Assembly (NCBI RefSeq): GCF_033954455.1
Contig: NZ_CP121473.1
Span: 1,116,001 to 1,180,000, forward strand
Source of the DNA: Thiorhodovibrio litoralis
Lineage (GTDB): Bacteria; Pseudomonadota; Gammaproteobacteria; Chromatiales; Chromatiaceae
Length of the DNA: 64,000 bases
Reading direction: 5' to 3'
Positions 38,846 to 45,594 of the stretch are shown here, in pieces. The notes under the pieces are model-generated. The model was not told where the DNA came from and searched no databases. It worked only from the letters and a program-made list of their open reading frames with translations. Position 1 is the stretch's first letter. Each line of letters opens with the position of its first letter. A program made the position numbers and the translations under genes.

Positions 38846-38875
38846 ATGAGAGCAACTAAAATGAGAGCAACTAAA
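38846..38875. repeat. Tandem 15-bp duplication at the sthA 3' end
   Basis: ATGAGAGCAACTAAA occurs twice head to tail (38846-38860, 38861-38875). It overlaps the sthA stop codon at 38871. Confidence 0.85.
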
Positions 38876-40271
38876 ACAGACGGTTCAGCCCATTGAGCGC
38901 CGCGACCCGGTAGGCCTCGGCCATGGTAGGGTAGTTGAAGGTGGTCTCGGTGAAATACTGGACGTTATTGGCGTCGTCCGGCTGCGACATCATGGCTTGA
39001 CCGATGTGGATGATTTCCGAGGCTTGCTCGCCGAAGCAGTGGATGCCGAGGATTTTTAGCGTTTCGCGGTGAAAGAGCAGCTTCAGCATGCCAACGGTTT
39101 GGCCGGTGATCTGGGCGCGGGCAATGCTCTTGAACGATGCCTGGCCGACCTCGTAGGGAACTTGGGCGGCGGTGAGCTCGCGCTCGGTGCGTCCGACCGA
39201 GCTGATCTCGGGCATGGTGTAGATGCCGGTCGGGAATTCGTCGATCAGCGACCAGTCGCAGCGGCCATCGGCGATATGTGTGCCGACGAAGCGGCCCTGG
39301 TCATAGCTGGCGCTGGCCAGGGCCGGCGGGCCAACCACATCACCGGCGGCATAGATGTGGGGCAGGGCGGTCTGGTAACTCTCGTTCACTTCCAGTTGGC
39401 CGCGTTTGTTGGGCTCAATGCCGATCATTTCCAGCCCGAGTTGGTCGGTGTTGCCGGTGCGCCCGTTGGCCCATAGCAGGATCTCTGTCTTCAGTTTTTT
39501 GCCCGAATGGCAATGCAGCACTACGCCATCCTGGTCCGGTTCCACCCGGTCGTAGCTTTCGTCGTGGCGGATTACGACGCCTTGCTCGCGCAGATGATAG
39601 CCAAGTGCGTCCGTGATCTCGTCATCCAGAAACGACAGCAGCCGGTCGCGGGTGTTAACGAGATTCACTTTCACGTCAAGATGGCTCATGATGGACGCAT
39701 ATTCGCACCCGATGACACCAGCGCCGTAGATGGTCATGGAGCGCGGGGTGTGCTTGAGCCGCAGGATGGAATCGCTGTCGAGCACGCGCGGATTGGAGAA
39801 GTCGACATCCGGCGGGTGATAGGGACGCGAGCCGGTGGCGATGACGAAGTTCTCACCGGCCAGCCGGTCGATCGCGCCGTCCGGACGGCTGACTTCAATC
39901 TGATACGGATCGACGAACCGGGCCTGTCCGTGCAAAATCTCGACCCGGTTGCGCTGAAAATAGCGGTAGCGGGTGCTCACCTGCGCGTCGATCACTGCGT
40001 CGGCCGCTTGCAGTAGCTGGGGGAAATCGACATCGATCAACCCGCTACTATGCGCGAACAGCGGATTGCGGCGATAATCCGCCAGCATCTGGATGGAGTG
40101 TCTGAGTGCCTTGCTCGGGATGGTGCCCCAATGCGTGCAGCCGCCGCCGACGCGCGGTTGGGCGTCGACCACCGCAACCTGGCGTCCGGCCTTGGCGAGC
40201 TTCATCGCTGCCCCCTCGCCAGCCGGGCCGGCGCCGATGATGATGGTGTCGAACCGCTTGTCGGTAGTCAC
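38871..40271 (-). CDS. sthA: Soluble pyridine nucleotide transhydrogenase
   Basis: A 466-aa flavoprotein that moves hydride between NADPH and NAD+. FAD motif [13 protein letters not shown]; the redox-disulfide position reads [15 protein letters not shown], where the second Cys is replaced by Thr as in SthA proteins. The NAD(P) motif is [13 protein letters not shown], the second FAD site [11 protein letters not shown], and the C-terminus carries [21 protein letters not shown]. The length equals E. coli SthA (466). No operon partners. Confidence 0.95.
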
Positions 40272-40463
40272 GGGTTGCCGCTCCGGTGAGTCGTGATGGG
40301 AAGGCCGAGGTTAACCCAAGGGGATCATCATGTCGCGGCCGATGCCGCGGCTCGGGCAACTGGAGCGGCCCCTGGGTATTGATTTTCCGCCCGCTCTGGG
40401 CCAGTCTGCGCTGGCCATGTCAGTCGCCCGCCTGCCGAACTCACGGCGAAGAGGAGCCAAACC

Positions 40464-40769
40464 ATGGATCTGCTGCCCCAAGATAAAGAAAAACTGCTGT
40501 TGTTCACCGCTGGCCTGCTTGCCGAGCGGCGTAAGGAGCGCGGGGTGAGGCTGAATTACCCTGAAGCCGTTGCCCTGATTAGCTGTGCGATTCTCGAAGG
40601 TGCTCGCGACGGCAAGAACCCTGATGATCTCATCAATGCCAGTCGCCGTTTGCTGCGTCAGGACGATGTGATGGAAGGGGTGGCGGAGATGCTGCCTGAG
40701 GTGAAAGTGGAAGCCACCTTTCCCGATGGCGTGCGGTTGATCTGCGTTTCCGATCCAATCACCGCCTGA
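40464..40769 (+). CDS. ureA: Urease gamma subunit
   Basis: A 101-aa subunit, well conserved against classical Ure[46 protein letters not shown] and [12 protein letters not shown]. It forms the trimer scaffold around the catalytic subunit. A GAGGAG ribosome site precedes the ATG. It is the first of three genes; a 128-base gap separates it from ureB. The good conservation contrasts with the changed active site of the UreC encoded downstream. Confidence 0.93.
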
Positions 40770-40897
40770 CCAATGGCTAGCAGGCTGGTCGCCACCGAGT
40801 GGGCCGCCCGCGCTGACTCGCCAGACATGATGCCGGCAAAGGACGCAGTCGGCGCCTGATTTTTCGCACTCCGCCGCTTCTGATGGAGGCAAGAGTT

Positions 40898-41272
40898 ATG
40901 AATTCCAAACCCATGATTCCGGGTGAAGTCCTGTTGGCTCCAGGGGATATTGAGCTTAATTCCGGTCAGTCGCTGCTGACCGTCGAGGTTGCCAATAATG
41001 GTGATCGGCCGGTGGAGATCGGCTCGCACTACCATATTGCCGAGGCCAACCCGGTGCTTGAATTCAATCGTGAGGCGGCACGTGGTTATCGGCTCGCGAT
41101 TCCGGCCGGCACCACGCTTTGCCTGGAGCCAGGGCAGCGGCGCATGCTCGATCTGGTCCCTTACGGCGGCACGCGTGAGTTGTATGGCTTTCGCGGGGAG
41201 GTGATGGGTCCGATCGACGCGCCGCCGCCAGCCCAGGAGATTGCCGAGCCTTTGCAGGAGACCGCGACATGA
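40898..41272 (+). CDS. ureB: Urease beta subunit
   Basis: A 124-aa subunit. Core motifs are intact: [39 protein letters not shown] and [12 protein letters not shown]. The ATG at 40898 has GGAGG about 8 bases upstream and is preferred to the in-frame ATG at 40883. A C-terminal tail of about 17 residues ([10 protein letters not shown]...) is longer than in classical UreB. The stop overlaps the ureC start (ATGA), so the two are coupled. Confidence 0.92.
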
Positions 41273-42891
41273 GCAAGATCAGCCGAGCCGATTATGCCGC
41301 GCTTTACGGTCCAACCATCGGGGACAGGGTGCGCCTCGGCGATACGGACCTGTTTGCGCAGATCGAGGAGGATCTCACCCACTACGGCGATGAGGCGCGC
41401 TTTGGGCGGGGCGGGTCCATCCGCGACGGCATGGGGCAATGTCAGCGTCAGGCCGACGAGGTGATGGATACCGTTATCACCAATGCCCTGTTGATCGATT
41501 TCTGGGGTGTTGTTAAAGCCGACATCGGTATCAAGGACGGGCGCATCGCGGCCATCGGCAAGGCCGGAAATCCAAACATCCAAACCGGCGCCGATGTGTT
41601 GATCGGTTCGGGAACGGAAATCATCGCCGCCGAGGGGCAGATTCTGACCGCCGGTGCGGTCGATGCCATGACTCACTTGATTTCGCCGAGACAGGCAACA
41701 TCCGCGCTGATGGCGGGCGTTACCACGGTGATTGGCGGTGGGACTGGACCAAGTGCGGGATCTTTGGCCGCAGCGACGACGCCTGGGCCCTGGAATATTC
41801 GCCGCCTGCTGCAAGCTGCCGAAGGTTTGCCTGTGAACCTGGGAATTCTCGCCAAAGGCAGCGGCAGCCTGCCCAACCCGCTTGAGGAACAAATTCGCTC
41901 CGGCGCCATGGGGCTGACAGTTCATCCGGCATGGGGCTGCACGCCAGTGGTGATCGCGCGGGCGGTGGAGATCGCCGAGAAAATGGATGTGCAACTGCTG
42001 CTGCGGTTCGACAGCCAGAATGAGTCCGGGTCCGTTGATGAACTCATGGGTTTGATTGGCGAGCACTGTGTTGGCACCCTGCATGGGGATTCGCACAACG
42101 ACGGGTCCATTGAGACACTGCGGGCGCTGGGCATGGCGCATACACTACCCTTGACGGTGTTCTCTCCGACGGCTGCGGACCAGGAGCGTACCGGCGCGCT
42201 TGAGGTGTTGCACGATCTTGGCGGCATCAGCGCGATGGCATCGGGTGGCCAGGCCGGCGGGCGCAGCGGCGGTTTAATCAGCCGCACCTGGCAGATGGCT
42301 CATCGCATGAAGGTGCGTCGCGGTCACCTGGCGCCGCCGCCCTTCGCCGCTGACATCGATCGCGAGGATAACGATAATTACCGCATCAAACGCTATATCG
42401 CCAAAACCGGCATCAACCCGGCGATACAGCACGGCATCGCGCATGAGGTTGGCTCGATCGAGGTCGGAAAGCTTGCGGACCTTGTACTGTGGCGCCCGGC
42501 GTTCTTTGGCGTGCGTCCGAGTCTGGTCATTAAAGGTGGACTGATCGCGGCGGCCCCGATGGGAGATCCCGGCGCCTCGGTCGCGGATGCCCAACCGGTG
42601 CAGTATGAGCCCCTGTTCGGTCTGACCGGCGGGGCGACGCGCCTGACCTGCATGACGTTCGTCTCCCAATGGGCCTTGCAGGCTGGCGAGCCGCAGCGTT
42701 TGGATTTGACCCGCCGTATCGGTGTGGCACGCGATGTGCGCCAGGTGCGCAAAGTGGATATGATCCATAATTTCTGGCGGCCGGAGATCGAGACTGATCA
42801 TCGCACCGGCGAATTGCACGCCGACGGAATGCCGATGACCTGCGAGCCCCTGCCGATCGTTCCGCTGGGACAACGCTACGCGCTCTTTTAA
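41269..42891 (+). CDS. UreC-like urease alpha subunit with most nickel ligands and the flap missing
   Basis: A 540-aa intact frame; classical UreC is about 567 aa. The N- and C-terminal thirds match urease closely ([47 protein letters not shown], ending QRYALF). The active site does not. Against K. aerogenes UreC numbering, His134 is Met, Lys217 (the carbamylated lysine) is Thr, His246 is Arg, and Asp360 is Gly (residue 326 here). His136, His219 and His272 remain. A 34-residue deletion removes the mobile flap with Cys319 and His320. No nickel centre can be expected. The gene overlaps ureB. No accessory genes (ureDEFGHJ) lie nearby. Function unknown; classical urease activity is improbable. 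Confidence 0.9.
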
Positions 42892-42990: not shown

Positions 42991-45594
42991 GTGGCTCGCG
43001 CGCTACAACGATTCTCAAGGTGCTTGGTGGCGAACAAGGATCAACCTCGGCCCTCTCGGGCGCGCTCCCACGACGACGACCCGCGGCCATCCGCGCCGCG
43101 TTGGTCGGGGTCTGCGGGCAATGTGCCGCCAAAAAAGAAAGCTCCCAAGAAAAACGCGGCCAAGACACCAACCAAGACCGGGCCTCATCCGGTGCTCGGG
43201 GTGCTGGATTTGTTTGGGCGCATGCTTGCCGGCATGCTCGCCATCCCGCTCGATCTGGCGGTGCTCGGGCTATTCGGCGCGGCCTTGGTGATCTATGTCA
43301 CCCTTCCAGAGTTGCCGGACATTGAAGGCTTGACCGATGTTGCTTTTGAGGAGCCGTTGCGGGTCTATTCGCTGCAAGGCTCGCTGATGGCCGAATTTGG
43401 TATTCAGCGCCGGCGTGCGGTCGCTTTCGAAGACCTGCCGCCCAACATCATCAATGCCTTCATCGCGACCGAGGATGCGCGCTTTTTTGCGCATGTCGGT
43501 GTGGATGCCATCGGCTTGCTGCGCGCGGCGGTGCATGTGGCGCGCACCGGTTCCATGACCCAGGGCGGCAGTACCATCACCATGCAGGTGGCGCGGAATT
43601 TTTATCTCTCGCGCGATAAGACCATCCGTCGCAAGCTCGCCGAGCTGCTGCTGGCGATGCAAATCGAAAAATCGCTCACTAAGGAAGAAATCCTCGAGCT
43701 GTACCTCAATAAAATCTTCTTCGGGCATCGTGCCTATGGTATTTCGGCAGCGGCGGAGTTCTACTACCGCAAGCCGCTCGATCAGCTCACACTGGCGCAG
43801 ATGGCCATGCTCGCTGGCTTGCCCAAGGCACCCTCGGCTAATAATCCGCTGAGCAATCCCGAACGGGCCAAAGAGCGACGCGACTATGTCCTCGGGCGCA
43901 TGCGCGAGCTCGGATTTATTACCGAAAGCCGCTATCGAGAGGCCATCGCCGAGCCGCTCACGGCCACTTACTACCGCGCGGAGATCGAATTTGAGGCCGA
44001 TTATGTCGCGGAGATGGTGCGCCAGGAGGTGGTCGAGCGCTTCGGCGAAGAGCAAGCCTATTCGCTCGGCCTGAACGTCTATACGACGGTGGATGAGCGC
44101 TTGCAGCGCGCGTCTGACGCGGCGCTGCGCGAGGGGCTGATGGCCTATAACCTGCGCCATGGCTACCATGGGCCGGAAGCCACCATTGACAATGCGGGTG
44201 CGCTGAGCGCCAGCCAGCTCGACGAGGTGCTGGCGGAGCGTCCGCCCGTGCCGGGCCTGCCAGTGGGGGTTGTGACCAAATTTGGACCCGAGCACGCTGA
44301 GGTCTATCTGGGAGACGGCCGCTACCATCAACTCACACGTGACCAGGTGGCCTGGGCACGGCGCTACAAGACCGAAAACTGGCGCGGATCTCAGCCGCGG
44401 CGGGTGGGCGAGGCGGTGTCGGTGGGGGATGTGATCCGGCTGCGCCAGAACGAGGACGGCGAATGGCGCCTCGCGCAGGTGCCGCTGGTGGGTGGCGCCC
44501 TGGTGGCCATGTCGCCGCAGGACGGCGCAGTGCGCGCGCTCTCTGGAGGCTATGCCTTCAAATGGAGCAAGTTCAATCGAGCGGTAGATATCAAACGCCA
44601 GCCGGGCTCGAGCTTCAAGCCATTCGTCTATGCGTCGGCATTGGCGCAGGGCTATACCCCGGCAAGCATCGTGCGGGACCAGCCGTTCGAGATGATGGGC
44701 GCGCGCGGCATGTGGCGGCCGCAAAACTCTGACGGCAAATTCCTCGGCGCCATGACCATTCGCAGAGCGCTAACCAGGTCGCGCAATCTCGCCATCATCG
44801 ATCTCGTTAATCGCGTGGGCCCGGATGTCGCGCGTGATTACATCCAGCGATTCGGCTTCTCGCTCGATTCCATTCCCAATAACATCGTAATGGCCCTCGG
44901 CGCCGGCGCGGCTTCGCCGCTCGAAATGGCAACTGGCTTCAGCGTGTTTGCCAATGGCGGCTACAAGGTGGAGCCTCACGTGATTTCCCGTATCGTCGAT
45001 GTGCATGGCCAAGAGATGTACAGGGCGAATGCGCCCCGATCCTGTGACGAGTGCTGGCTGGAGGTGCCCGAAGATGGCACGGCGCGGACGCAGGCGGACG
45101 GGGCTTCCAGTGCCCCGGAAGCGCCCCAGGTGGTCGACCCGCGCATTGCCTACAGCATCGATTCCATCTTGAAGGACGTGGTGATCCAGGGCACTGCCAC
45201 GCGGGCAAGGGTGCTCGAGCGGCCGGATATCGGCGGCAAAACCGGTACCACCAACGATTCGCGCGATTCCTGGTTTGCCGGCTATCAGCCTGAGCTGGTG
45301 TCCATTGTCTGGATGGGTATGGACGATAACCGCCCGCTTGGTCGTGGTGAGTGGGGAGGAACCGCCGCCCTTGGGGTGTGGATCGACTTCATGCGTGTCG
45401 CGCTGGAGGGGATACCCGAGGCCAAGATCAAACGCCCGGAAGGCATGGTTGAAGTGAGCTTGCAGGGTGGCGGAACTGAGGTCGTGCGGGTCGAATACCG
45501 CGACAAACTTGGCGGCCCCACGCCGGTTTCCTCAGGTTGGACACCATCGCCGCGGAGAGGCAGTGCGCCGCGGGTGATCGACGATCTGTTTTGA
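42991..45594 (+). CDS. mrcA: Penicillin-binding protein 1A (bifunctional transglycosylase/transpeptidase)
   Basis: An 867-aa class A PBP that polymerises and cross-links peptidoglycan. An N-terminal basic tail (about 65 residues, Lys/Pro-rich) precedes one membrane helix (about 70-105). The glycosyltransferase domain has the catalytic Glu in ATEDARFFAHVG and the motifs QGGSTITMQVARN and RKLAELLLAMQIE. An OB-like insert characteristic of PBP1A follows. The transpeptidase domain has SxxK in PGSSFKPF, SRN in LTRSRNLAI and KTGTT. The start codon is GTG; a later start is possible. Confidence 0.93.
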   Translation: MARALQRFSRCLVANKDQPRPSRARSHDDDPRPSAPRWSGSAGNVPPKKKAPKKNAAKTPTKTGPHPVLGVLDLFGRMLAGMLAIPLDLAVLGLFGAALVIYVTLPELPDIEGLTDVAFEEPLRVYSLQGSLMAEFGIQRRRAVAFEDLPPNIINAFIATEDARFFAHVGVDAIGLLRAAVHVARTGSMTQGGSTITMQVARNFYLSRDKTIRRKLAELLLAMQIEKSLTKEEILELYLNKIFFGHRAYGISAAAEFYYRKPLDQLTLAQMAMLAGLPKAPSANNPLSNPERAKERRDYVLGRMRELGFITESRYREAIAEPLTATYYRAEIEFEADYVAEMVRQEVVERFGEEQAYSLGLNVYTTVDERLQRASDAALREGLMAYNLRHGYHGPEATIDNAGALSASQLDEVLAERPPVPGLPVGVVTKFGPEHAEVYLGDGRYHQLTRDQVAWARRYKTENWRGSQPRRVGEAVSVGDVIRLRQNEDGEWRLAQVPLVGGALVAMSPQDGAVRALSGGYAFKWSKFNRAVDIKRQPGSSFKPFVYASALAQGYTPASIVRDQPFEMMGARGMWRPQNSDGKFLGAMTIRRALTRSRNLAIIDLVNRVGPDVARDYIQRFGFSLDSIPNNIVMALGAGAASPLEMATGFSVFANGGYKVEPHVISRIVDVHGQEMYRANAPRSCDECWLEVPEDGTARTQADGASSAPEAPQVVDPRIAYSIDSILKDVVIQGTATRARVLERPDIGGKTGTTNDSRDSWFAGYQPELVSIVWMGMDDNRPLGRGEWGGTAALGVWIDFMRVALEGIPEAKIKRPEGMVEVSLQGGGTEVVRVEYRDKLGGPTPVSSGWTPSPRRGSAPRVIDDLF

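Follow-up and report, generated by a model that had tools for sequence, protein, structure and literature searches.

Within the 64,000-nucleotide stretch of Thiorhodovibrio litoralis DNA analysed here (the window), a ureABC operon encodes a urease alpha subunit that has lost most of its nickel ligands together with the flap over the active site. The protein is probably a nickel-free pseudo-urease, retained for a binding or scaffold role.

The operon consists of three plus strand genes on a complete 5.47-Mb chromosome, and the frames of ureA, ureB and ureC are all open (Table 1). The probable start of ureB, placed by eye, is the ATG at 40898, behind GGAGG. UreC matches the urease alpha domain (PF00449, 1.7e-49) and the amidohydrolase barrel (PF01979, 6.2e-38), is 50% identical to the K. 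aerogenes alpha subunit, and scores 595.9 bits against the NCBI equivalog TIGR01792, under the cut-off of 680. The genes for the gamma and beta subunits adjoin ureC. In the window ureC overlaps the end of ureB by 4 nt, which fits the translation coupling proposed in the earlier note, but the overlap is not general, as the flapless genome G182 has a 48-nt gap instead. On the minus strand, opposite the start of ureC (41421-41704), the Rfam model for the 5'-ureB sRNA (RF02514) matches with 81.5 bits, which probably reflects coding-sequence similarity and no RNA gene.

The operon is flanked by a divergent gene, which we take to be sthA-like, and by a downstream gene that is presumably mrcA-like. 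In the spacer between the former and ureA, a block of about 36 bp has hardly changed among the three congeneric genomes, while much of the adjacent spacer differs. The block did not align in Rhabdochromatium, and it may be a control region for the sthA-like gene or for ureA. A promoter scan of the window locus returned two weak sites, none of them upstream of ureA, and no terminator was found there.

Table 1. Features of the pseudo-urease locus, in window coordinates
Feature	Position	Strand	Basis or remark
sthA-like pyridine-nucleotide oxidoreductase gene	38871-40271	divergent from ureA	upstream neighbour
conserved non-coding block	40375..40412	.	DNA alignment; between divergent sthA-like gene and ureA
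ureA, urease gamma subunit, 101 aa	40464..40769	+	PF00547 (Urease_gamma) 1.4e-39
ureB, urease beta subunit	40883..41272	+	PF00699 (Urease_beta) 4.3e-36
flapless, ligand-less ureC (pseudo-urease alpha subunit), 540 aa	41269..42891	+	Urease_alpha match
codon for M, His134 (Ni2 ligand) position	41668..41670	+	alignment
codon for T, carbamylated Lys217 position	41917..41919	+	alignment
codon for R, His246 (Ni1 ligand) position	42004..42006	+	alignment
missing flap (about residues 301-336, with C319/H320)	42150..42175, approximate	+	ends vary with alignment
codon for G, Asp360 (Ni2 ligand) position	42244..42246	+	alignment
mrcA-like bifunctional penicillin-binding protein gene	42991-45594		downstream neighbour of ureC

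Residues are numbered as in K. aerogenes urease, which served as the reference together with 41 flap-bearing UreC sequences. According to the available part of PMC7433671, K217 bridges both nickel ions, the other nickel ligands are the equivalents of H134, H136, H246, H272 and D360, and a flap bearing C319 and H320 lids the active site. The residues H134, H136, K217, H219, H246, H272, C319, H320 and D360 are intact in 41 of the 41 flap-bearing proteins. The window UreC has M134, T217, R246 and G360, so that four of the six nickel ligands are replaced, and both C319 and H320 are absent; it retains the ligands H136 and H272, plus H219. The pocket has changed as well, with P220, A221, N277, A336 and G364 in place of the E220, D221, G277, R336 and M364 of urease, whereas A167, H219 and A363 have been kept. 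Its closest flap-bearing relatives among ureases have 574 aa, 34 more than the window protein. The four ligand changes and the 34-residue deletion that removes the C319/H320 flap had both been noted from the letters alone, and both are confirmed, the former against all of the references and the latter by alignment with the 574-aa ureases.

The AlphaFold model of the window UreC, made with a 45-sequence alignment, has a pLDDT of 84.6 and a pTM of 0.91 (a 15-sequence alignment gave a pLDDT of 34.6). The best Foldseek matches are ureases, with a TM of 0.93 (query length) for 8hcn chain C. The urease fold thus appears to be kept in the model, whose alignment consists mostly of ordinary ureases and may bias it towards urease.

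The gene is not unique to the window, and most of the bacteria that carry such a urease are purple sulfur bacteria. A family search of 210 Chromatiaceae genomes found a ureC match in 95. Flapless ureC is present in six of the 210, including all three genomes of the window's genus. In these six the match to the window protein is a single piece (1-540), whereas the other listed matches are split at the flap or partial. Identity to the window UreC is 81 and 78% in the congeners, 76% in Rhabdochromatium marinum, the nearest named relative carrying the flapless gene, and 65 and 62% in the MAGs CSSed11_194 (G052) and CSSed162cmB_275 (G184). An order-level search covered the same 210 genomes and adds no extra evidence. 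Among the matches listed, a class sample (369 genomes, 91 with a match) contained no further flapless copy, and a phylum sample (398 genomes, 167 with a match) contained one more, the 484-aa UreC of G846, whose host belongs to another family and class. Flap status in these samples was read from the shape of the match (one piece, 1-540 or nearly so, versus split near 297-301), and since lower-ranked matches fall outside the list, a flapless gene could be missed. A scan of 84,980 species, one genome each, yielded 78 UreC of usable length among the best 80 of 176 confirmed relatives, and three of them lack the flap motif, namely those of Rhabdochromatium, CSSed11_194 and CSSed162cmB_275. The scan relied on two peptide patterns, so that copies without these are missed (G846 is not among its loci), and it may leave out records near the window genome. 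The loss of flap and D360 is common to the six Chromatiaceae genomes, which makes the pattern more than chance.

What is left of the nickel site differs from copy to copy. In the other flapless proteins, residue 134 is M, L, Q or H, residue 217 is M, K or R, and residue 246 is Q, D or H, and the trio M134/T217/R246 occurs in the window copy only. The remaining ligands are H136 and H272 in three copies, the window's among them (L001, L004 and L005), H136, K217 and H272 in L006, H136, H246 and H272 in CSSed162cmB_275 (L008), H134, H136 and K217 in CSSed11_194 (L007), and H134, H246 and H272 in G846. Amidohydrolases can function with a single metal. The leftover ligands could thus serve hydrolysis with another metal or of another substrate. 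None of the six Chromatiaceae copies has lost H136 or H219, and only one has lost H272; the PDB also lists an iron urease of Helicobacter mustelae (3qga, judged by its title). We regard such an enzyme as unlikely, because the seven copies have five different ligand sets, every one of them has lost D360 and the flap, and conservation is lowest in the pocket region. Not one metal ligand occurs in every copy, which argues against a shared new metal site and disfavours the "other metal chemistry" that the earlier note had included in its idea of a repurposed urease scaffold. That idea is otherwise supported by the evidence against decay given below.

Selection on the operon speaks for retention. 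Among the window gene and the three orthologues nearest to it, the dN/dS of ureC is 0.102-0.130 at a dS of 1.10-1.35 (five of the six pairs computed), compared with 0.030-0.078 for ordinary ureC (six pairs, from the Halochromatium and Thiocapsa groups). Constraint on the window clade is thus looser, yet strong. The pair formed by the window gene and that of CSSed162cmB_275 (dN/dS 0.155) has a saturated dS of 2.02 and was set aside as evidence. The corresponding values are 0.066-0.193 (five pairs) against 0.042-0.073 (three pairs) for ureA, and 0.116-0.200 (five pairs) against 0.079-0.222 for ureB. ureA is present in all five other flapless Chromatiaceae genomes, and the frames of all three genes are intact in the six. 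With open frames, Pfam matches and purifying selection, ureA and ureB are indeed preserved, as had been claimed.

Constraint has also shifted along UreC. In a comparison of four flapless UreC with a chosen subset of ten ordinary Chromatiaceae UreC, mean pairwise identity over residues 241-301 is 95.5% in the ordinary and 53.4% in the flapless proteins, while over residues 386-430 it rises from 81.9% to 93.0%. In 20-residue bins, conservation increases from 0.70 in ordinary to 0.95 in flapless proteins for residues 381-400, and from 0.60 to 0.92 for residues 501-520; the bins 461-480 and 521-560 are looser in the flapless proteins.

A dead relic, that is, an operon without maturation genes that is decaying slowly, would account for the missing accessory genes, for the divergence of the catalytic half of the barrel, and for dN/dS values about two to four times those of ordinary pairs. 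It would also fit Halochromatium salexigens, where accessory genes are seen to break, and the MAG CSSed11_194, whose branch carries 26 nonsynonymous and 17 synonymous strictly polarised changes, against 2 nonsynonymous and 9 synonymous ones on the sister branch. The 26:17 ratio means that this lineage by itself could be relaxed, and the loss in CSSed11_194 is recent and partly relaxed. As a general explanation, a relic nevertheless appears improbable, and for the window clade it is strongly disfavoured. It is at odds with three intact frames in six Chromatiaceae genomes, with a dN/dS of 0.10-0.13 at dS above 1, and with segments whose conservation exceeds that seen in ordinary ureases. Crude random mutation of the H. 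salexigens gene, with 200 mutations, left it stop-free in 0.3% of 300 runs. Neither a disrupted frame nor a dN/dS near 1, the marks of a pseudogene, is found in the window clade; what is found, a fold kept in the model, lost catalytic residues and purifying selection, are the marks of a pseudoenzyme. The view that this is not simple decay is upheld by the orthologues, the dN/dS values, the shifted constraint and the repeated origin described below. A young pseudogene among canonical close relatives, which had been named as the outcome that would speak against it, is contradicted, as the congeners and R. marinum (76-81% identity) are also flapless, with a dN/dS of 0.10-0.13.

The genomes that depend on the flapless gene appear to lack the means to load nickel. 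In the five Chromatiaceae genomes whose sole ureC is flapless (two single-contig assemblies and three drafts, with CSSed162cmB_275 84% complete), UreD, UreF and an above-cut-off UreG were found in none, and four of the five have weak UreG-like matches far under the cut-off. The same searches detected UreD, UreF and UreG in four control genomes and in the window genome, where they lie beside another urease. UreF is present in 82 of the 86 genomes with only non-flapless ureC, compared with 0 of the 5 flapless-only genomes (Fisher 2.7e-6); some of the 86 carry a partial ureC, and G051 was scored as UreF-positive on a fragment. The denominator results from the 95 genomes with a match by subtraction of the six flapless ones and of G016, G060 and G062, which have weak matches (E 2.7e-17, 1.3e-4 and 5.6e-4). 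The four exceptions without UreF (G167, G185, G196 and G198) are all drafts.

The absence of accessory genes reported in the earlier note therefore holds for the window locus but not for its genome, and the second canonical urease that the note had proposed to look for exists. It is located at about 2.98 Mb (G000:C1:2976445-2981661), together with UreD, UreF and UreG, and its UreC has all ligands and the flap. The flapless protein could in principle be an accessory or decoy subunit for this ordinary urease of the same cell. Such a role seems very improbable, since the two UreC of the window genome are only 53-56% identical and far apart in the tree, and it is contradicted outside the window genome, where the family search gave no further ureC match for any of the remaining five flapless Chromatiaceae genomes. 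In the trees, which do not include many other Chromatiaceae ureases, the second UreC falls among non-Chromatiaceae sequences.

Flap loss has occurred more than once. In a ureC tree built without the flap columns, CSSed11_194 is the sister of the ordinary H. salexigens UreC (100/96), apart from the other five flapless Chromatiaceae sequences. CSSed162cmB_275 groups with the window clade with a support of 100/99, but its long branch makes this grouping less sure than the support implies. A quick tree places G846, itself on a long branch, with ureC of the alphaproteobacterial type, and under this tree the flapless state has to change three times. The positions of CSSed11_194 and G846 make a single origin unlikely, and judged from sequence the flap was lost at least twice and probably three times. 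A single-clade origin was tried as a constraint and rejected modestly (AU p 0.031), with a long branch in play. Of the expectation that the residue pattern would define a clade, the clade around the window gene stands; flap loss has at least two origins, and the trio is specific to the window.

CSSed11_194 offers the closest view of such a loss. In this MAG and in H. salexigens, ureABC has the same neighbours, an ABC protein gene on one side (93.5% identity) and a VanZ-like gene on the other (65%). Remnants of ureD, ureE and ureF are found at the H. salexigens locus and are absent from that of CSSed11_194, and the Halochromatium-like MAG lost its flap at the ancestral urease locus. In H. salexigens (L045:9776-11100), ureC is ordinary, only the two ends of ureF are left, ureG is frameshifted in the draft, and a VanZ-like ORF lies between them; the species is possibly an intermediate in the loss of urease maturation. 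The two UreC differ at 36 of 538 aligned positions, and three of the six nickel ligands are among these changes (P = 0.005; P = 0.031 for 11 ligand and pocket residues tested together). Of the 15 changes in CSSed11_194 at otherwise invariant columns, 11 fall in residues 241-365 (Fisher 5e-5), a region picked after the differences had been seen.

The G846 protein has deletions of the flap, of part of the glycine loop and of the D360 loop, as well as K217 to R and H136 to A replacements. UreF was not found in its genome, and its 7.8-kb contig contains no ureA or ureB, so that assembly of the three subunits may not be universal. On this contig (L122:1-2913), the lone UreC-like gene is preceded by an ORF of 480 aa that has no match in Pfam, and a weakly terminase-like ORF is nearby.

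Among the six flapless genomes compared, the order sthA-like, ureABC, mrcA-like is common to the window genus and Rhabdochromatium only. In CSSed11_194 ureC lies beside the VanZ-like gene, and in CSSed162cmB_275 it lies between a pilus/secretion ATPase-like gene and genes that by eye are rpsP/rimM-like. A gene neighbourhood shared across the flapless lineages was considered and rejected, as the surroundings differ between lineages, and no partner gene is therefore singled out. The contexts examined also bear on the possibility of a small-molecule sensor or receptor, in which the flapless cavity would bind urea or another metabolite and signal by assembly. H219, kept in seven of seven copies, A167, which the alignment shows in all but one, and the barrel fold kept in the model would suit a ligand-binding site of this kind. 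However, the pocket walls vary among close relatives (53% identity over 241-301) and no linked regulator gene was seen in these contexts, so that we consider a sensor rather unlikely.

A nickel-free pseudo-urease thus seems the most probable reading. The window UreC is predicted to fold as a urease alpha subunit, and from co-conservation it probably assembles with UreA and UreB. It should hold no nickel pair and hydrolyse no urea, given that four of six ligands, most pocket residues and the flap are gone and that orthologue-bearing genomes lack the nickel-loading proteins. Selection now acts on the chassis, visible as conservation of the N-terminal domain and of residues 381-460 and 501-520. 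The likely work is binding, either of another protein, for which the complex would be a scaffold or regulatory assembly, or of a ligand in the widened cavity. The route, as read from Halochromatium, may begin with breakage of the maturation genes, after which UreC would shed its lid and ligands. Finally, a bare ureABC would persist since the complex had, or gained, a non-ureolytic use; a second function may have preceded the loss.

Urease is a textbook nickel enzyme. It is conceivable, though we would not yet lean towards it, that the urease protein has an unrecognised role independent of urea, one strong enough that unrelated lineages without nickel loading trim the site and the lid but retain the remainder as a selected pseudo-urease. 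There are reports of ureases acting on host cells by non-enzymatic means (PMC8268090, in the part available). A literature search, with most subscription papers and all preprints outside its scope, gave no recognisable report of a flapless or ligand-less urease, or of a urease family abandoning catalysis. Since the catalytic features were lost repeatedly while the chassis stayed, a function of UreABC independent of urea becomes directly testable, and natural ureases without metal site and lid are material for studies of assembly and nickel loading. There is also a warning for the annotation of genomes and metagenomes, where a ureC call by itself may suggest more ureolysis than there is; the Pfam urease models accept the window copy.

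With the Klebsiella/Sporosarcina-type UreABC, the operon shares the order of three subunits, the predicted fold (TM 0.93) and 50% identity of the alpha subunit. In contrast to these enzymes, the flapless copies lack a complete nickel site and the flap, and mostly lack maturation genes. The UreC of Bacillus subtilis presumably has an ordinary active site. Like most flapless lineages, B. subtilis retains ureABC without accessory genes, and its urease activity is described as very low in the accessible part of PMC8600894. The absence of accessory genes alone is thus no proof of lost ureolysis, and it is the lost residues that carry the argument. The iron urease of H. mustelae is an active enzyme that retains its ligands. 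This UreA2B2 resembles the pseudo-urease in departing from nickel, to go by the title of its PDB entry, whereas the pseudo-urease has lost the ligands themselves. Dihydroorotase is a member of the amidohydrolase superfamily. In the aspartate transcarbamoylase (ATCase) of Pseudomonas aeruginosa, an inactive dihydroorotase homologue, pDHO, is needed for activity and assembly of the complex, according to the part of PMC7053772 that was available. As in this precedent, the pseudo-urease would be an inactive homologue, but pDHO belongs to a different enzyme family and has a known partner.
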